A stretch of 39,442 nt of DNA from Erysipelotrichaceae bacterium (GCA_015058955.1 SVBJ01000017.1:1-39442); one strand, 5' to 3'. Counted from the first letter of the stretch, positions 1 through 8,025 are shown. Translations and numbers: made by a program. Notes: generated from the sequence alone by a model not told the origin.

Positions 1-9
1 GTATGATTT

Positions 10-1047
10 ATGAATAAGATCTGTTTTAACAATGACTACAGTGAAATTGCCTGTCCCGAGATCATCGAGAACATTTCCAAATACAGCAAGGGCCATTATA
101 TAGGTTATGGCGGAGATGAAATATGCGAATCAGCCAGAGAAAAGATAAAGAAGTATCTGGGTGATGTTGACTGCGACATTCATTTCCTGGTAGGGGGAAC
201 CCAGGCCAATACCGTAATGATCGATGCCATGTTAAAACCGTGGGAAGCCGTAGCTTCAGTTGTCAGCGGTCATATCAATGTTCATGAAGCCGGCTCCATT
301 GAAAGTGTTGGTCATCGCATTGAACCGCTGCCTGAACATAACGGCAAGATGGATCCGGAAGAACTTGACAAGCTGTGTGTCGTTCATGAATTTGAACACA
401 TGACAGATGTCAAGGGCGTTTACATTTCCCAGGCTACGGAAACAGGAACCGTCTATACCAAGCAGGAATTACTGGCCTTAAGAGAAGTATGCGACAAGCA
501 TAACCTGTACATGTTTGTGGACGGGGCCCGCATGGGTTCAGCCATGATGTCAGAGGGAATGGATCTTACCTTAGAAGATATGGCAAAGATAGCTGACTGC
601 TTCTACATCGGTGCTACCAAGAACGGCGGTATGATCGGTGAAGCCATGGTCATTACCAATGATGAACTTAAGCCTAACTACAGAAGACTGATGAAGCAGC
701 ACGGTGCCTTACTGGCCAAGGGTTTCATTCTTGGCATTCAGTATGATACCCTGTTTACTGACGGTCTGTTCTTCAGACTGGCCAAGCATGAAAATGACAT
801 GGCCATGTACCTGAAAAAGGGCATGAAGAAGCTCGGCGTCAAGTTCCGGTTTGATTCCGTAACCAATCAGCAGTTCCCGGTATTTGAAAACAGCATTGTT
901 GAGAAACTGGCAGAAAGATATCAGTTTGAGATCTGGGAACCGGGTGACCAGGAAACCACGATCAGATTCGTCTGTTCCTGGGCTACGGTAAAGGAAGACA
1001 TCGATTCCTTACTGAAAGACATTGAAATCATAACTGCCCAAGCATAA
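10..1047 (+). CDS. ltaE: Low-specificity L-threonine aldolase
   Basis: PLP-dependent fold-type I enzyme that splits L-threonine or allo-threonine to glycine and acetaldehyde in the cytoplasm. The 345-residue length is normal for the family. The pattern VDGAR with Asp171, which contacts the PLP ring nitrogen, is followed by FYIGATKNGG, where Lys204 is the expected Schiff-base lysine; GGTQAN near residue 62 is the usual phosphate-binding segment. An in-frame TGA at positions 4-6 makes ATG at 10 the first possible start; its ribosome site lies at or beyond the window edge. The gene ends at a terminator shared with the convergent TPM gene. The related beta-eliminating lyases (tryptophanase-like) are less likely because the length and the GATKNGG motif fit threonine aldolase. 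Confidence 0.92.
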   Translation: MNKICFNNDYSEIACPEIIENISKYSKGHYIGYGGDEICESAREKIKKYLGDVDCDIHFLVGGTQANTVMIDAMLKPWEAVASVVSGHINVHEAGSIESVGHRIEPLPEHNGKMDPEELDKLCVVHEFEHMTDVKGVYISQATETGTVYTKQELLALREVCDKHNLYMFVDGARMGSAMMSEGMDLTLEDMAKIADCFYIGATKNGGMIGEAMVITNDELKPNYRRLMKQHGALLAKGFILGIQYDTLFTDGLFFRLAKHENDMAMYLKKGMKKLGVKFRFDSVTNQQFPVFENSIVEKLAERYQFEIWEPGDQETTIRFVCSWATVKEDIDSLLKDIEIITAQA

Positions 1048-1050
1048 TAA

Positions 1051-1078
1051 AGATCAGCTCTGAAAGCTGATCTTTTTT
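1051..1078 (+). terminator. Rho-independent terminator after ltaE
   Basis: A perfect 9-bp stem, AGATCAGCT with AGCTGATCT, has a 5-base loop and is followed by six T. It starts two bases after the aldolase stop region and lies just before the end of the convergent TPM gene, so it may also weakly stop leftward transcription, although the T-run on that strand is poor. Confidence 0.9.
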
Positions 1079-1081
1079 CTG

Positions 1082-1987
1082 TTAATGATGTCTTCCGGCT
1101 CCGGCTCCTCTTGATGAACCGCCGTGTGATGAACCTGAACCGAATGATGATGAATGTGACGAAGACGAATGTGAACTGCCTCCGCCTGAGTAACCGCCTC
1201 CACCGGAATAACTGGATCCACCGCTGCTGTGAGAACTGCCTGACGGCCTGTAATGATCATAGCTGTAATAGGTGGATGGTCTGTAGGTGAACGGGCTGGT
1301 ATATGTCCTGTATCTAGGACGGGTATAGTAGTAAGTTGGCTGATAGTATCTGCGGGTTGACCGGGTGATGATCCTGTAGATCATGATTACCACGACAATG
1401 ATGATCCGCAGTTCAACCAGCAGCATGAACCAGCTATAGGTATAACTGGTGCCGCCGTTGCCGCCTCCGCCATTGCCTCCGTTGTTTCCATATATTACCT
1501 GATCTATGTAATCATAGGTCTTTTCATATACTCTTCTGACCCCGCGGTCATAATCCTTGGCAGCGAATGAAGGTTCCAGGTAGTCGTCGAGCAGCTGCTG
1601 AATGTCATAGATCGGGAAGGAATCTTCCAGACCTCTTCCTATCATCATGTAATAGTCATCGTCGCCGATCGACAGCAGTAAAAGTACACCGTTGTTTAAT
1701 GACGAATCTCCCAGTTTCCATTGATTGAATATGGCCAGTGCGTAGTCATCGATGCTGCCGGTGACAAAGTCAACGGTAACGACCATGATGCAGGCACTGT
1801 ATTCGTCAGCCAGTATCTGGGATTTCTCCTGGATGTAGGCTTCGGTTTCACTGGAGAGCACATCGGCGTAATCTTCTACCCAGGTTTTATTGCTGGTCCT
1901 TTCAGGTACCTTAATGCTGGCTGACACACTTGTCAGTGACAGCAGCATGGCAACTGTAAGGATGATAGCGGTAAAAACTTTCTTCAT
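1082..1987 (-). CDS. TPM-domain protein (YgcG family), membrane-anchored
   Basis: The 301-residue product has an N-terminal signal peptide (MKKVF, then a hydrophobic run, then SVSAS), so its TPM domain (about residues 30-165) is predicted to lie outside the membrane. The domain shows the usual start with DYADVLSSETEAYI and the central NNGVLLLLSIGD strand and MIGRGLED motif. A Gly/Asn linker leads to a hydrophobic segment (about 185-207), an Arg/Tyr-rich stretch and a Ser/Gly/His-rich tail, the YgcG layout. TPM proteins are often found beside LemA, as here; their activity is not settled (phosphatase and scaffold roles have been proposed). It is the last gene of the leftward operon and has its own AGGAGA ribosome site. 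Confidence 0.85.
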   Translation of the reverse strand: MKKVFTAIILTVAMLLSLTSVSASIKVPERTSNKTWVEDYADVLSSETEAYIQEKSQILADEYSACIMVVTVDFVTGSIDDYALAIFNQWKLGDSSLNNGVLLLLSIGDDDYYMMIGRGLEDSFPIYDIQQLLDDYLEPSFAAKDYDRGVRRVYEKTYDYIDQVIYGNNGGNGGGGNGGTSYTYSWFMLLVELRIIIVVVIMIYRIITRSTRRYYQPTYYYTRPRYRTYTSPFTYRPSTYYSYDHYRPSGSSHSSGGSSYSGGGGYSGGGSSHSSSSHSSSFGSGSSHGGSSRGAGAGRHH

Positions 1988-1995
1988 TTCTTCTC

Positions 1996-2529
1996 CTATT
2001 CGAAATACTCAGCTTTCTTGGCAATCAGTCTGAACAGTGAACCAGGGATACCCTTGGTTTCATCATAATACTGTCTCACCAGTGTATTGTAGTTATCACT
2101 GTTGATCGTATTTGTCTCGGAACGGTACTGACTCTGGTATTTGGTCAGCAGTTCTTTATGGGTAGCTGACAGAGACTTGTTTGTCAGTTCAGAGAGTAAC
2201 CAGTCAACATCACTGTCCAGAGCTTTCACATATCCATAGAGTTTTGATATGGATTTGGTTTCCGGAATGTCATTGACCAGTTTCTGAATTTCCTTGATGT
2301 GAGAATCATTGGAACTGACATATTCCTTTGCAAGCTTAATCAGATTACTGGCGATTTCTGTCTTGTCAATGATGTCATTGTAAATTGACAGATTATCGTT
2401 GTGGTCGCCTGCATAGAAATGAGTCTCCAGCTTGGTTACCATACTGTTCATGGAACTGACGGCGGAAATTGTTGAAGAACCTAAAATCGCTACCAGCATG
2501 ATAATAATTGCGGTTCTTGTTTTAATCAT
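1996..2529 (-). CDS. LemA-like membrane-anchored helical protein
   Basis: The 177-residue product has one N-terminal hydrophobic helix and an otherwise helical, charged body, which is the LemA layout and size (about 180-190 residues). The C-terminal GSLFRLIAKKAEYFE resembles the LemA ending, in which a hydrophobic stretch precedes a terminal EYF. The remaining identity to classical LemA is low, so this is a family-level call. The ATG lies two bases after the stop of telA with only a weak ribosome site, which points to translational coupling. Placement between TelA and a TPM protein supports the call because LemA and TPM genes commonly travel together. Confidence 0.65.
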   Translation of the reverse strand: MIKTRTAIIIMLVAILGSSTISAVSSMNSMVTKLETHFYAGDHNDNLSIYNDIIDKTEIASNLIKLAKEYVSSNDSHIKEIQKLVNDIPETKSISKLYGYVKALDSDVDWLLSELTNKSLSATHKELLTKYQSQYRSETNTINSDNYNTLVRQYYDETKGIPGSLFRLIAKKAEYFE

Positions 2530-2531
2530 TG

Positions 2532-3683
2532 TTATTTTACTCTAACCTCTAATAATTTTGCCTTTAACTCTTCTTCGAGCTTTCTGAGTTCTACTTCAGC
2601 AGCAGCTCTCTTTGTACGTCCTTCATCCTGGATCTTCAGAACTTCGTCCAGAGTATCGATCAGAGACTGGTTAGTGAACTTCAGGGTTTCAACTTCAACG
2701 ATTGAACGTTCGCTTGCCTTGGCAGTGTCGATTGTTGAAGTCTTTAACTTTTCAGCGTTCTTTCTTAACAGTTCGTTGGTAACTCTGTCAACTTCTTCTT
2801 CAGCCTTGATGGCATCCTGAGAATGCTGTAAGCCTAAGGCCAGAACCATCTGTGACTTCCACAGAGGGATGGTATTTGTCAGGGTTGACTGGATCTTTTC
2901 AGCCATTAAGGTGTCATTGTTCTGGATCAGACGGATCTGTGGTGCCATCTGGATTGAAACCATTCTGGTTAATTCCAGGTCATGCAGCTTCTTTTCGAAA
3001 CGGTTGATCAGGTTGGCATAGTCGTTAGCTTTCTGAGCGTCTTCTTCGTCGCCTGTTTCCTTAGCCCTGGCGATTAATGCCGGTAATTCAACTTCCTGTG
3101 CATGTTTCAGTTTCTTCTGGCCGGCCAGGATGTACATGGTCAGTTCCTTCTTGTTCTGAATGTTGCGTTCATATAATTCGTCAAGAACAGTGATATCCTT
3201 CAGTAACTGGATCTGATGGTCTTCCAGCAGGTTGGCAACCTTGGTAACGTTCAGCTCAGCATCATCGTATCTTGCCTTTAACTGTGTGAAAGAGTTACCG
3301 GCTTTCTTGAAGATGTTGAACAGGCTGAAGAAACCCTTTTCTTCCTGATCGATGTCAAAACCCTTTAATTCAACAACGAGATCGGAGATCATGTTACCGA
3401 TTTCGCCTAAGTCCTTGGTCTTGATGTTATTCAGTGTGCTGTCGGAGAAATCAGCGATCTTCTTCTGAGCACTGGCACCATACTGCATGACTGTATCAGT
3501 CTGAGTGATGTCGATCTTCTTGGCGAAATCTTCAACCATCTGTAATTCTTCCTTGGAAAGGGATGAAGAATCAAGTGGTGCAGGAGCAACTTCTGTTGCT
3601 GTCTGTTCCTCAACCTGAGCGATTGCTTCAGCAACCGGGTCACTCTGAGGATTCAGGGTCAAAACGATTTTTTCTTCTTCCAT
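2532..3683 (-). CDS. telA: TelA/KlaA family toxic-anion resistance protein
   Basis: A 383-residue soluble, mostly helical protein. The segment TRMVSIQMAPQIRLIQNNDTLMAEKIQSTLTNT split over residues about 240-275, followed by IPLWKSQMVLAL, is characteristic of TelA (tellurite and toxic-anion resistance). The N-terminus is acidic and low-complexity and the C-terminus is a long coiled coil. The family has been tied to tellurite, nisin and cell-wall antibiotic tolerance, but no biochemical activity is established. The start is supported by AAGGAG eight bases upstream. It follows an XpaC-like gene directly, a pairing seen in many Bacillota. Confidence 0.88.
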   Translation of the reverse strand: MEEEKIVLTLNPQSDPVAEAIAQVEEQTATEVAPAPLDSSSLSKEELQMVEDFAKKIDITQTDTVMQYGASAQKKIADFSDSTLNNIKTKDLGEIGNMISDLVVELKGFDIDQEEKGFFSLFNIFKKAGNSFTQLKARYDDAELNVTKVANLLEDHQIQLLKDITVLDELYERNIQNKKELTMYILAGQKKLKHAQEVELPALIARAKETGDEEDAQKANDYANLINRFEKKLHDLELTRMVSIQMAPQIRLIQNNDTLMAEKIQSTLTNTIPLWKSQMVLALGLQHSQDAIKAEEEVDRVTNELLRKNAEKLKTSTIDTAKASERSIVEVETLKFTNQSLIDTLDEVLKIQDEGRTKRAAAEVELRKLEEELKAKLLEVRVK

Positions 3684-3695
3684 ATTTAGTTCTCC

Positions 3696-4358
3696 TTAAT
3701 TATCTTTATTGTCAAGGTCAATGAGACCTTCCTGAACAAATATCTTTTCCAGAACCTTGACTTCACTGTTGATGTCCAGGGTATCGGTATCATACAGGGA
3801 ATTCAGCTGGTTTCTGAAGGCGACGTTAGTGGTTCTGATCAGATCTTCCACTTTCTTCTTGCTGTCGACGACCTTGTCAACGGTCTGTTCCTCAACTTCA
3901 TCGTATCTGGTCAGCAGTTTTTCAATGGTCGGCAGGTAGTAGTTAACGAGTTTTCTCAGGCTGCTGGCGGCTGTTTCATGTTCATAGACGTAATCCAGGA
4001 TCTTGTCGCTGGTTTCGACCAGTTCTCTGACGTTTTCATTGAGTTCCGGATTATCGATCCTCTTGTTGATATCAATGATGCTGTTAAGAGTTCTGGTACC
4101 GTCTTCGATGAACTGCTGCTGCAGCTTTGAGTGATATGATCTCAGTGTTTCAACTTCGTATTCCTCTTCAACATCAGGGAAGACCATCTTCCTGAGAATG
4201 AAGTAGGCAGCTACACTGATGACGCCGAGAATCAGATAACTGTACAGTTTATACATCGGCAATACCAGCGTACCCAAAGCCCATAAAAGAGCGATGGCAT
4301 AGAATACTTTATTATTCGGAACTTTTCTGGTATGCACTTCTTTTACTGGCTGTAACAT
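3696..4358 (-). CDS. XpaC-like membrane protein (5-bromo-4-chloroindolyl phosphate hydrolysis family)
   Basis: Two adjacent hydrophobic helices near the N-terminus (about residues 17-55) are followed by a cytoplasmic helical domain of about 150 residues, as in XpaC. Despite the family name no enzyme active site is visible. I use ATG at 4358 (220 residues): a GTG at 4364 would abut the GGAGG ribosome site with no spacing, whereas the ATG is six bases from it. It lies between the AAA+ ATPase and telA in the leftward operon. XpaC and TelA are habitual neighbours, which suggests that TelA is recruited to the membrane by this protein; that is inference. Confidence 0.78.
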   Translation of the reverse strand: MLQPVKEVHTRKVPNNKVFYAIALLWALGTLVLPMYKLYSYLILGVISVAAYFILRKMVFPDVEEEYEVETLRSYHSKLQQQFIEDGTRTLNSIIDINKRIDNPELNENVRELVETSDKILDYVYEHETAASSLRKLVNYYLPTIEKLLTRYDEVEEQTVDKVVDSKKKVEDLIRTTNVAFRNQLNSLYDTDTLDINSEVKVLEKIFVQEGLIDLDNKDN

Positions 4359-4378
4359 ATGCACCCTCCTATAAACAA

Positions 4379-6445
4379 TTATATATTATCTGATTTGATT
4401 TTAAAATCTATGTCTTCCAGGATGATCAGGTCGAGCTCGGCATCCTTGTCGGCGATGATTCTCTTGGACTGATGGATGATGGCTTCTTCGATCATGTTTC
4501 TGGCTAATCGTCCGTTACCGCTTCTGACGGAATCGGAAGCCTGAACCTGTCTGTAGTATTCGGTTAACGGCTCCCTGATCAGTTCATGAAGACGGTAGCC
4601 CTTGCTCTTGGCCTGAATGACGGTGATGTCATACAGTTCTTCAGCAGTGTAGTCCGGGAATTCGATCTGATTAGGGAAACGGGAAGCCAGACCGGAGTTG
4701 GACTCCAGGAAGACCTTCATTTCCTTGGTGTAGCCGGCCAGAATGACGATCAGGTCGTCTCTGTTATCTTCCATGGCTTTAACCAGGGTATCGATGGCTT
4801 CCAGACCGAAGGAATCGTTGGTTCCGCGGTACAGTGAATAGGCTTCGTCAATGAACAGAATGCCGCCTAAGGCTGACTTGATGACCTGCATGGTCTGCGG
4901 AGCGGTGTGTCCCAGATACTTGCCGACCAGGTCATTACGTGATACTTCCACCAGCTGGCCGTTACTTAAGACACCGATGGCCTTGAGATACTTGGCCAGC
5001 ACTCTGGCGATGGTGGTCTTGCCGGTACCAGGGTTGCCGGTGAAGATCATGTGCTTGGAGACCTCTGAGGTCTTCAGGCCCTGTTTCTCCCTGATCTTCT
5101 GGGCTTCGTAGAAGTCTTCCAGAGACAGGATGTATTTCTTTATTTCTTCCAGGCCAACCAGCTGATCCAGTTCCTTCTGGGCTTCTTCCTTGGCATTTTC
5201 CAGTACGTGAGGAAGCAGCTCTTCCAGCTTGCTTTCTTCTTGATCCTTGATGAAGACGATCTGGTTGTCCTTGACAGATATCTTCAATGAGATGACTTCA
5301 TCGGTCAGGTTCTTCAGCTTGTATTCAGCCAGGGCTTCGTAGCATCTGTCAAAGAAATTGTTGAGATACCGGACGTTTTCACGGTCGATGAAGTTGTCAT
5401 TGAGGTATGTTCTGACAGCCTTGGAGGCCTTGATGTCGATCTTCAGCAGGTCCATGCACTTCTTCCGGAAGGCTTTCAGCTTGACCGGATAGATGACTTC
5501 AAGATCTTCCTTGACGATGTCCTTGGTCTTGATGACATCGCCCATGGTGTTGATGAATCTGGCACCGACAACTTCCAGCAGCTTTTCAACCTTTAAGGTT
5601 GTCATGAAGACAAGGTATTTGCCCTTGAAGCTGATGGTCTTGACGGTGTCCTTTACCAGGGAAGTAGCGGTTTCCACCAGCTGCTTGTTGGAAAGGGTAT
5701 ATCTCTTGGACAGGGTCAGCTGTCCGTCGGTTACTATTTCGGTAATTGTCGGCAGGAAGTTGGCTGAGATGGTCTCCAGGTTGTCAAAGACGATGATGGC
5801 TGACTTGTGGGTAGCCGTGTAGAGGTCCTGAACCAGATTAGCTTCAAATTCCTTACCGGAATACTGGGACAGGTCAATGAATGACAGTTCGTCATTGCTG
5901 ATGAGTTCCTGTTCCTTTAAAAGTCTGGAGATCAGATTGACGGAAGTGTGTCTTCCGGTGGCTTTCTGTCCAATGATCAGGATGGAATTCTTCAGACCGC
6001 TTGGCTGAACGCCCATGATGGTCGGCCTTCTGAAGGCGACGGTCAGGGAGTGGTTGTAATCCTTCTGGCAGAGTACTTCCTCATTCAGCCTAGCCTCGAC
6101 ATCTTCATACTTGGAATTGAGAGACATCTGCTGGTGAATGACGGTCAGCTCTTCCTGGGTTTCAACCGGCAGCTGATCGCCGAAATCCTTTCTGATCTCG
6201 TTTCTTAACCGGTCCAGATCAGCATCGGTAAAATTGTTCAGCATCTGCTGAGTCTGTTCCTGCAGTTTCTGACTGTTTTCCTTGATGGACTTCCATTCCG
6301 GGGAAAGGCTGTCAATGTCCAGAAGATTGGCACGCAGCAGTTCCAGGTCTTCTTCCGTAAGGCGGCGGTTAGGTGCATCCTTGCCGAAGACCTTTTCCAT
6401 CAGTTTTTCTTTTTCTTCTTCTTTTCTTCTTCTGTAATCGGCCAT
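4379..6445 (-). CDS. Two-module AAA+ ATPase, CbxX/CfqX (SpoVK-like) type
   Basis: 688 residues: a charged coiled-coil N-terminus (1-125), a first AAA-like module (about 125-400) and a canonical second module (about 425-680). Module 2 has Walker A GNPGTGKT (470-477), Walker B ILFIDE (529-534), sensor-1 region VILAGYTKEM, a probable arginine finger Arg589 in GLASRF and sensor-2 GNGRLARN near 643-650, the pattern of CbxX/SpoVK remodelling ATPases. Module 1 aligns with the start of ClpB-type modules but its Walker A is GQKATGRHT (159-167), lacking the lysine, and its Walker B reads IIVFDNLE, lacking the catalytic Glu, so it is probably structural. The start follows AGGAGGAG. Such ATPases act as hexameric remodelling factors; the substrate here may be one of the operon's XpaC, TelA or LemA proteins. 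Confidence 0.85.
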   Translation of the reverse strand: MADYRRRKEEEKEKLMEKVFGKDAPNRRLTEEDLELLRANLLDIDSLSPEWKSIKENSQKLQEQTQQMLNNFTDADLDRLRNEIRKDFGDQLPVETQEELTVIHQQMSLNSKYEDVEARLNEEVLCQKDYNHSLTVAFRRPTIMGVQPSGLKNSILIIGQKATGRHTSVNLISRLLKEQELISNDELSFIDLSQYSGKEFEANLVQDLYTATHKSAIIVFDNLETISANFLPTITEIVTDGQLTLSKRYTLSNKQLVETATSLVKDTVKTISFKGKYLVFMTTLKVEKLLEVVGARFINTMGDVIKTKDIVKEDLEVIYPVKLKAFRKKCMDLLKIDIKASKAVRTYLNDNFIDRENVRYLNNFFDRCYEALAEYKLKNLTDEVISLKISVKDNQIVFIKDQEESKLEELLPHVLENAKEEAQKELDQLVGLEEIKKYILSLEDFYEAQKIREKQGLKTSEVSKHMIFTGNPGTGKTTIARVLAKYLKAIGVLSNGQLVEVSRNDLVGKYLGHTAPQTMQVIKSALGGILFIDEAYSLYRGTNDSFGLEAIDTLVKAMEDNRDDLIVILAGYTKEMKVFLESNSGLASRFPNQIEFPDYTAEELYDITVIQAKSKGYRLHELIREPLTEYYRQVQASDSVRSGNGRLARNMIEEAIIHQSKRIIADKDAELDLIILEDIDFKIKSDNI

Positions 6446-6453
6446 AACTCCTC

Positions 6454-6984
6454 CTATTTAAGATTGTTGGAAAGCTCTCTTAAGCGGGCAAGCTTGGAAT
6501 TGTGCAGTACTTTCTTGACCATGGTCAGGGCATCGTAATAGCCCTGGGTATAGCCGTCGATCGTGATGGTATTCATCTTCTGGGAACAGGTTTCCAGATC
6601 GGAAGCGACCTGCTGTTCAACGTGCAGAAGATTGTTCTTGTACTGAGTGGTCATCTGAATGTATCTGTCAATGGCCTGCTGATAGCCGTCCTTCTTGCCG
6701 GCGGCATAGTTATCGTAGACGATGTTTGACAGGGAGGCGATGATCTGTTCGTAACGTGAATTGAAGGAGGCTACTTCAACGTCAGCCTTGATTCTCGGCC
6801 TGACGGTTGAATAGGTAGATCTGGTGTAGCTTCCGGATGTACCTCTGCTTCTCTTGCTGGTGTTGTATCCTTTTACGGTATTGGAGAATTCATGCATTGA
6901 CTGATCGGCAAAGTCGCCGGAATTCAGTTTTTCCAGTAATTCATCCAATGGATCGCTGTTATAGTTGTATTTCCTGTTAGCCAT
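6454..6984 (-). CDS. Conserved-looking soluble protein of unknown function
   Basis: 176 residues from ATG 6984 (MANRKYNYNSD), preferred to the upstream ATG 7026 because it has the ribosome site AAGAAGGTGG and overlaps the upstream gene's stop by 8 bases, typical of coupled translation. The protein is hydrophilic: an N-terminal half rich in Ser, Thr, Arg and Tyr (likely disordered) and a C-terminal helical half with DGYQQAIDRYIQ and DGYTQGYYDALTMV. No family was recognised. It sits between an XpaC-like membrane protein and the AAA+ ATPase, so it may be an adaptor between the two; this is inferred from position only. Confidence 0.75.
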   Translation of the reverse strand: MANRKYNYNSDPLDELLEKLNSGDFADQSMHEFSNTVKGYNTSKRSRGTSGSYTRSTYSTVRPRIKADVEVASFNSRYEQIIASLSNIVYDNYAAGKKDGYQQAIDRYIQMTTQYKNNLLHVEQQVASDLETCSQKMNTITIDGYTQGYYDALTMVKKVLHNSKLARLRELSNNLK

Positions 6985-7951
6985 TTGATTCCACCTTCTT
7001 CTCCTGAGACTGTTTGAAGTTTTCAAAAGTCATTTCATCCTGAACCAGGCCGTCTTTCTTTAACAGAGCTTCCAGAGTCTTCATGTCAACTGAAGATTCG
7101 GTATAGTATTCTTCCAGAAGGGTATGAGTCAGGGTATCCAGGGCACCGTTGATCAGTACCAGGGTCTTGAGCAGACGGTCTTCGTTTTCCTTGAATTCCT
7201 TGCTCTGAGTTGAACCGACGCTCAAGCGCTTGTAGTTTTCCAGAATATCCAGCAGCATAGGCAGGTAATACTGGTACAGCTTGGTGGTCTTGTCCTTGCT
7301 CTTAGGGAAGGTCTTTTCAATGTCTCTGATCTGAGATAGATACTGTACGGACTTGTTGAGATGTTCCGTAATGGTTTCCTGCTCAATGGACTCATTCATC
7401 TTGCTCAGGGAGTCAATGTAGTACTGAGCATCCTTGAGATAGGTTGACTTGGTCTGAGTTTCCTTCGGAGTATTGCTGACAGGCTTGCTCCGGGAAACAT
7501 TGCGGCTGTTGGTATAGTTGAGGATCATGTCAACGAAAGTGTTGTATGAGTTCGGGAAAGCGATCTTGTATTCGCTTAAGGTTGAGATGTATTCATCGCG
7601 CATGTAAATGCCGACATTATCCAGGGTGATCGGTCCGTCAGCTAACGGGGTCAGATAGGTTTCCTGGTCAAACAGCAGTCTGGCATCACTCTTGAAGTGA
7701 TTGTCCAGGGCCTTGACGAACTTGGCTTCATTAGGATTGGTTCTGGAAGTCGGTGCAGAAGCCGTTCTGGTCTTGAAAATGCTGTCGGTCTTCTTGTTCT
7801 TGCCGGTAAACATACGAATGATGTACACGAAAATGCCAATGGTGATCAATGGTCCGAAGACATCCATTGCTACTCCGAATATTTCAAATCCTACCGAGAG
7901 AACAGTGAGTCCCGCGAATAAGGAAAATAAGAATAATATTAATCCAATCAT
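6977..7951 (-). CDS. XpaC-like membrane protein, long form
   Basis: 324 residues, first gene of the leftward operon. Two hydrophobic helices occupy residues 1-50 (ending in FTGKNKK), followed by a Ser/Thr-rich linker and a helical domain of about 200 residues. The last 180 residues, with YYIDSLSKMNESI, KLYQYYLPMLLDILENY and a final KDGLVQDE, resemble the second XpaC-like gene at 3696-4358, which has VNYYLPTIEKLLTRY and VQEGLIDLD at matching places. The operon therefore probably holds two diverged XpaC paralogues. The promoter lies about 30 bases upstream, with AAAGGA as ribosome site. Confidence 0.65.
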   Translation of the reverse strand: MIGLILFLFSLFAGLTVLSVGFEIFGVAMDVFGPLITIGIFVYIIRMFTGKNKKTDSIFKTRTASAPTSRTNPNEAKFVKALDNHFKSDARLLFDQETYLTPLADGPITLDNVGIYMRDEYISTLSEYKIAFPNSYNTFVDMILNYTNSRNVSRSKPVSNTPKETQTKSTYLKDAQYYIDSLSKMNESIEQETITEHLNKSVQYLSQIRDIEKTFPKSKDKTTKLYQYYLPMLLDILENYKRLSVGSTQSKEFKENEDRLLKTLVLINGALDTLTHTLLEEYYTESSVDMKTLEALLKKDGLVQDEMTFENFKQSQEKKVESNG

Positions 7952-7980
7952 AAGGCATCAATCCTTTCATGCTATTTTTA

Positions 7981-7989
7981 ATTATATCA
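7981..7989 (-). promoter_or_regulatory. Extended -10 promoter of the XpaC-AAA-TelA operon
   Basis: Reading leftward the sequence is TGATATAAT, an extended -10 element 30 bases before the first operon gene. No good -35 hexamer lies 17 bases upstream, as expected for extended -10 promoters. It is back to back with the rightward promoter of the GNAT gene. Confidence 0.6.
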
Positions 7990-7996
7990 TTATTTT

Positions 7997-8025
7997 TTGC
8001 CTGCTAGGTATATTTTTTATATAAT
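7997..8025 (+). promoter_or_regulatory. Promoter of the GNAT gene
   Basis: TTGCCT at 7997 and TATAAT at 8020 are 17 bases apart. The predicted start is around 8032, giving a short leader with GAGGGG before ATG 8047. Confidence 0.6.

Follow-up and report, generated by a model that had tools for sequence, protein, structure and literature searches.

We identified a seven-gene operon in a stretch of 39,442 nucleotides from an Erysipelotrichaceae bacterium (GCA_015058955.1; the whole stretch is referred to as the window). The operon is a variant of the XpaC-TelA envelope-stress operon and consists of two fixed groups of genes with the gene of an AAA+ ATPase between them. The association of this ATPase with TelA across genomes is well supported. 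By family profile and predicted fold, the ATPase is a degenerate ClpC/ClpB D2-like module followed by an intact CbbX-like motor, and a dead Clp D2 module ahead of a live CbbX-type motor is an unusual build for an AAA+ protein. XpaC-TelA pairs recur in responses to envelope stress and antimicrobial peptides, and the literature gives no settled mechanism for them. Because the ATPase almost never occurs without TelA and its motor belongs to a partly understood clade, the function of TelA becomes testable. We give an even chance to the proposal that the seven genes specify an envelope-stress system anchored in the membrane, with the AAA+ protein as a dedicated remodelling chaperone of a TelA/XpaC assembly, and not as an unfoldase for degradation.

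Organization of the operon

The features of the operon, from the promoter side to the terminator side, are the following:

7981..7989, minus strand: extended -10 promoter-like element TGATATAAT, about 30 bases 5' of the first start codon (a sequence reading)
6977..7951, minus strand: long XpaC-like membrane protein, 324 amino acids, with two N-terminal hydrophobic segments (residues 1-50 transmembrane-like)
6454..6984, minus strand: p176, soluble helical protein, 176 amino acids; its first 8 bases lie within the end of the long XpaC gene
4379..6445, minus strand: AAA+ protein, 688 amino acids, with a predicted Clp D2-like module (about 104-403) and a predicted CbbX/SpoVK/EccA-type motor (about 409-681)
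3696..4364, minus strand: short XpaC, 222 amino acids when counted from GTG 4364, with N-terminal membrane segments (residues 19-63 transmembrane-like)
2532..3683, minus strand: TelA, soluble protein, 383 amino acids (PF05816, 1e-117)
1996..2529, minus strand: LemA-like protein, 177 amino acids, with one N-terminal membrane segment
1082..1987, minus strand: TPM-domain protein, 301 amino acids, with a signal peptide-like start, the TPM domain, a membrane segment (182-209) and a Ser/Gly-rich tail
1049..1075, minus strand: terminator-like hairpin downstream of the last gene, which could serve either strand

Mechanical ORF calling placed seven ORFs on the minus strand, from 7951 to 1082, each where the preliminary description had it. 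The genes run in the order long XpaC, p176, AAA+, short XpaC, TelA, LemA-like and TPM with intergenic spacings of -8, 8, 14, 12, 2 and 8 bases, confirming the earlier description of seven leftward genes with tiny gaps or overlaps. That the operon has no internal terminator was also borne out: the only minus-strand terminator-like site within positions 1-8000 is the one at 1075-1049, after the last gene. The single extended -10 element described upstream is present as a sequence at 7989-7981 and is sigma-70-like in its letters; since shuffled sequences give promoter-like matches at least as often as this region does, TGATATAAT is to be taken as a reading of the sequence. The likelier start of the short XpaC protein is ATG 4358, since the ribosome-binding site leaves no room before GTG 4364. 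The -10 element of the operon lies back to back with a promoter-like site of a divergent GNAT gene (window 7981-8025), with uvrA next after it; a second locus of the same genus (L033) has kept this flank.

The family assignments differ in strength. The short XpaC protein (PF10112, 5e-11) and the TPM protein (PF04536, 1.6e-27, 96 bits against a cut-off of 22) score above their Pfam cut-offs. The long XpaC protein matches PF10112 below the cut-off (3e-5); since its family profile groups it with XpaC proteins, the weak call is upheld. The LemA-like protein does not reach the cut-off of PF04011 (0.009; 16.3 against 26.2 bits), and four of the seven members of its family match this domain, with 2e-5 as the best value. 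We call it LemA-like because its family profile matches the solved LemA structure 2etd at 1e-7. A canonical LemA (5e-53) is encoded elsewhere in the same genome (G000:C35:35473-35913), so the protein of the operon is a divergent paralogue. For p176 no family match was found in Pfam or NCBIfam. A C-terminal helical bundle is predicted for it in a model built on four sequences, and the fold gave no significant match in the PDB. By hydropathy both XpaC proteins, the LemA-like protein and the TPM protein are membrane proteins, and TelA, p176 and the ATPase are soluble.

Comparison with described operons

The short XpaC gene lies directly upstream of telA with a gap of 12 bases, and both proteins score above their Pfam cut-offs, so the operon has the arrangement of XpaC directly followed by telA that marks the XpaC-TelA envelope operon. 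The same succession is found in xpaC-yaaN of B. subtilis, lmo1966-lmo1967 of Listeria and llmg_1115-telA1 of Lactococcus. These operons are under envelope-stress control (SigW, CesSR) and are linked to nisin tolerance; in B. subtilis, xpaC-yaaN(telA) counts among the core operons of SigW (PMC3498285). Unlike those operons as published, the operon in the window adds the AAA+ protein, p176, a second XpaC, the LemA-like protein and the TPM protein. In the literature searched we found no paper that describes the full seven-gene set, in agreement with the earlier statement that no such system is known to have been described. The operon also resembles the LemA-TPM pair in that a LemA-like gene is followed by a gene for a TPM-domain protein, and it departs from that pair in having a LemA-like protein that has diverged as a paralogue and is tied to TelA.

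The name of TelA suggests an operon for the detoxification of tellurite or other toxic anions, a reading that we regard as very improbable here. Mutation or down-regulation of telA has been reported to raise tellurite sensitivity, and a Listeria telA mutant is more sensitive to both nisin and tellurite by a mechanism that was left unexplained (PMC12791056). The same mutant, however, is hit harder by nisin than by tellurite, and no recognised transporter or reductase is encoded in the operon. With the Ter system the operon shares a member of the TelA family, but TerB, TerC, TerD and nucleotide-signal genes are absent from the seven; searches of the seven proteins in Pfam and NCBIfam gave no match to TerB, TerC or TerD.

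The AAA+ protein combines a Clp D2-like module and a CbbX-like motor

The Pfam AAA+ match of the ATPase (3e-19) covers the C-terminal module only, and the same holds for the NCBIfam matches. In NCBIfam the C-terminal module matches SpoVK (5e-93), EccA (4e-75) and CbbX (1e-71). The scores against the equivalog cut-offs of SpoVK, CbbX and EccA (311/423, 253/467 and 241/459 bits, respectively) stay below the cut-off in each case, indicating that the protein is not SpoVK, CbbX or EccA proper. A profile built from 22 relatives matched CbbX (1e-89) and EccA (2e-85) over residues 409-680, and ClpC (9e-25), mostly its D2 module, over residues of about 38-405. The N-terminal module alone reached only 0.0035 to ClpC in a single-sequence search, so at the sequence level its Clp assignment is carried by the family profile. 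The predicted structure (mean pLDDT 84) agrees with this division: predicted residues of about 104-403 superpose on the D2 modules of ClpA, ClpC and ClpB with Z scores of 22-24, and predicted residues of about 394-686 superpose on CbbX with a Z score of 25. The preliminary description had read the protein as two CbxX-type modules, which is refuted by the profile and the fold of the N-terminal module.

The motor residues of the C-terminal module are conserved throughout the family. Its Walker A lysine, both Walker B acids and Arg589 are invariant in all 72 relatives, and the pore tyrosine is kept in 67 of them. Also invariant are G571 and Y572, which form the GY signature of sensor 1. The clade is further marked by an Asn that precedes the first arginine finger by four residues; here N583 is invariant, but most members have Lys or Ala four positions after it. 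This core, with intact Walker A and B and the sensor 1 GY, is what the protein has in common with the SpoVK/CbbX/EccA clade, from which it differs in its N-terminal partner, a dead Clp D2-like module where members of that clade have a TPR, a beta-prism or the SpoVK N-domain. The N-terminal module in turn is like the D2 ring of ClpC/ClpB in fold and profile. Unlike in those rings, its Walker A lysine and threonine and its Walker B glutamate are mostly replaced, and a working AAA+ motor follows. Its Walker A reads GxxxxG[R/K]H, with the lysine replaced by Arg in 48 and the threonine by His in 60 of the 72 relatives, and the Walker B position is most often EN instead of DE, with the glutamate mostly replaced. 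Because these residues are replaced, the N-terminal module presumably no longer turns over ATP. Apart from the modules, a conserved EVLGK motif at the N-terminus of the ATPase was considered and rejected, since it is not general.

The domain build bears on whether the ATPase could be an unfoldase of the Clp type, handing its clients to a protease, for example ClpP. The N-terminal module descends from the Clp D2 fold, which carries the ClpP contact in ClpA and ClpC. However, this module lacks the residues for ATP use and sits at the end of the protein that does not suit a stack like that of ClpA/ClpC, and the motor belongs to a clade for which no protease links are known; we therefore consider a protease-feeding role extremely improbable. 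Likewise, a Clp/Hsp100 disaggregase requires two working Clp-type modules, whereas this protein has a single one, in which the Walker residues are lost. The SpoVK/CbbX/EccA clade is made up of dedicated chaperones, which recruit through N-terminal domains that vary and for which no protease partner is known. Among them, SpoVK is the activator of MurG, and the tail of Rubisco is the target of CbbX (PMC10659427). These precedents agree with the remodelling chaperone that we propose.

Conservation of the gene order

The gene order was compared in 148 genomes of the order Erysipelotrichales. All seven genes occur in the same order in five genomes of three genera, namely the window, L033 (same genus), L039 and L040 (a second genus) and L061 (a third genus). 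The order is therefore not private to the strain in which it was first described, and a chance adjacency of the genes is ruled out. The last five genes are present at L064, where the contig then ends, and in another family (L084) the succession ATPase-XpaC-TelA-LemA-TPM is found.

The two-module ATPase, counted from full-length places and the divergent G065, is present in 56 of the 148 genomes. Among the 51 ATPase loci not truncated by the end of a contig, 45 have a long XpaC gene (about 300-377 amino acids) directly upstream of the ATPase, with or without p176. The two genes are separated by p176 in 28 of these 45 loci and by a shorter ORF without a match in one; they adjoin directly in the remaining 16, most of which belong to one genus. 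TelA is found within about 5 kb downstream of the ATPase in 23 loci. The p176 profile is present in 40 of the 148 genomes, where it adjoins a long XpaC wherever this was checked, and it is absent from one whole genus. A hidden or fused p176 was rejected for this genus, as there is no ORF between XpaC and the ATPase there, and so was a relocated copy, as none was found elsewhere in those genomes.

The remaining parts of the operon also occur as separate groups. Long XpaC with p176 stands separately at L240-L242, L244-L246, L248, L251, L252 and L254, and short XpaC-TelA-LemA-like-TPM stands separately at L243, L247, L250, L253 and L255. Three modules are thus fused in the window and found apart elsewhere, consisting of long XpaC with p176, the AAA+ protein, and short XpaC-TelA-LemA-like-TPM. 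At two of the separate loci (L240 and L241, from G095 and G070) there are two tandem long XpaC genes followed by p176; in these genomes TelA is encoded elsewhere and the two-module ATPase is absent.

The conserved unit also informs a reading in which the ATPase works as SpoVK does, as a chaperone for some other client in the envelope, for instance a cell-wall synthesis enzyme, and XpaC and TelA do no more than localise or regulate the ATPase. SpoVK, which belongs to this clade, has MurG as its target and answers to a distinct binding partner, and the closest genetic neighbour of the ATPase is the long XpaC gene and not telA. Yet the conserved unit contains no cell-wall enzyme gene at the loci compared, and the gene that tracks the ATPase across genomes is telA, which leaves this reading quite unlikely in our view.

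Co-occurrence of the ATPase and TelA

TelA is encoded in 64 of the 148 genomes. Both genes are present in 55 genomes, the ATPase only in one, TelA only in nine and neither in 83, so that TelA accompanies the ATPase in 55 of 56 genomes against 9 of the 92 others; most of these pairs are unlinked. Counted by genus, the numbers are 23 with both, none with the ATPase only, five with TelA only and 38 with neither. The Fisher test, which ignores kinship, gives p values of 8e-30 by genome and 3e-13 by genus. Canonical LemA served as a control and was not positively associated with the ATPase (present in 24 of 56 genomes with it and in 56 of 92 without it). The nine genomes with TelA and without the ATPase indicate that TelA can function on its own in this respect; a lower-scoring type of TelA is carried by at least four of these genomes, and the TelA of the window falls in the higher-scoring group. 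Both genes are absent from G086, G132 and G139, of three genera, although congeners have both; incomplete assembly is possible for these genomes.

Outside the order, the ATPase occurs in Lachnospiraceae, Oscillospiraceae and others. TelA was found in 19 of 20 genomes obtained in the ATPase search, which include some Erysipelotrichaceae and four genomes with a form of 1,100-1,200 residues. In a Lachnospiraceae sample, TelA is present in 76 of 150 genomes and the two-module ATPase in five, all five with TelA on another contig (p of about 0.03, where one of the five is the seed genome).

The co-occurrence also weighs on a reading in which the operon is a co-regulated envelope-stress regulon without physical coupling, with the ATPase, TelA/XpaC and LemA/TPM doing separate jobs and being kept together by shared regulation. 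The modules are apart in many genomes and the known xpaC-yaaN operon sits in the broad SigW regulon, as this reading would have it. However, the ATPase and TelA keep occurring together where their genes are unlinked, a pattern for which shared promoters do not account, and the adjacency of long XpaC and the ATPase is nearly fixed. We consider co-regulation as the whole explanation rather unlikely.

The N-terminal tail of TelA carries a conserved motif

TelA of the window has an acidic disordered N-terminal tail (window 3560-3683) outside the Pfam domain, and this tail carries an LTL motif (IVLTLNP). An LTL-type motif is present in 50 of the 51 TelA proteins of the ATPase-bearing Erysipelotrichales set, where about three would be expected from shuffled sequences, and a PTLTLDP-like form is present in 15 of the 17 TelA proteins from ATPase-free genomes. 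A motif specific to ATPase-bearing genomes was therefore rejected; the LTL tail is general to TelA and is not by itself an ATPase tag. The tail may nevertheless be a natural candidate site for binding or pulling. No solved structure of TelA was found by sequence.

A model for the system

The earlier proposal of one machine around the ATPase holds as an association: the conserved unit, the conserved sub-modules and the co-occurrence of the ATPase and TelA even when unlinked support one functional system. Physical contact, the identity of the client, an adaptor role of p176, the direction of signalling, the stress trigger and the role of LemA and TPM are the parts that we infer. In the model, TelA and XpaC would form an assembly at the inner face of the membrane, with the AAA+ protein as its non-proteolytic remodeller. 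In the context of the Ter system, TelA was suggested to make up structures beneath the membrane (PMC7824862). Docking of the ATPase to the membrane would be the task of long XpaC, helped by p176 as a small adaptor, and the dead Clp D2-like module would serve as a scaffold and a platform that recruits the client. The intact CbbX-like module would hydrolyse ATP and pull on or loosen TelA or XpaC subunits, which would thereby be assembled, reset or activated, much as CbbX does with Rubisco. The LemA-like and TPM proteins would be outward-facing partners of the XpaC-TelA half. The division of the proteins into soluble and membrane ones fits the needs of this remodelling model; contrary to it, the ATPase gene is not next to telA in most genomes. 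The lack of p176 in a whole genus, the Lachnospiraceae loci that have the ATPase and no XpaC beside it, the nine genomes with TelA only and the LTL motif in genomes lacking the ATPase also speak against the model. A more specific and rather doubtful extension is that the ATPase is the missing energy-using partner of TelA, which would dock on or pull the LTL tail in order to put together or take apart a TelA/XpaC coat beneath the membrane when the envelope is stressed; this would apply to Erysipelotrichales and also to clostridia in which the gene lies far from telA.

Related ATPase genes at other loci

Longer relatives of the ATPase (1,128-1,213 residues), apparently with a further AAA+ module, were found in Lysinibacillus, Paraclostridium, Sporanaerobium and Terrisporobacter (L111, L112, L113 and L117). 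The genome of the window also encodes, at L089 (G000:C19:82000-100000), an 834-residue protein with two CbxX-type modules, which is unlike the ATPase of the operon. At the three Lachnospiraceae loci that were available in full (L098, L101 and L106), the ATPase stands beside gapA or pgk and without XpaC. This orphan gene adjoins gapA at all three loci and lies near pgk and tpiA at L101 and L106.
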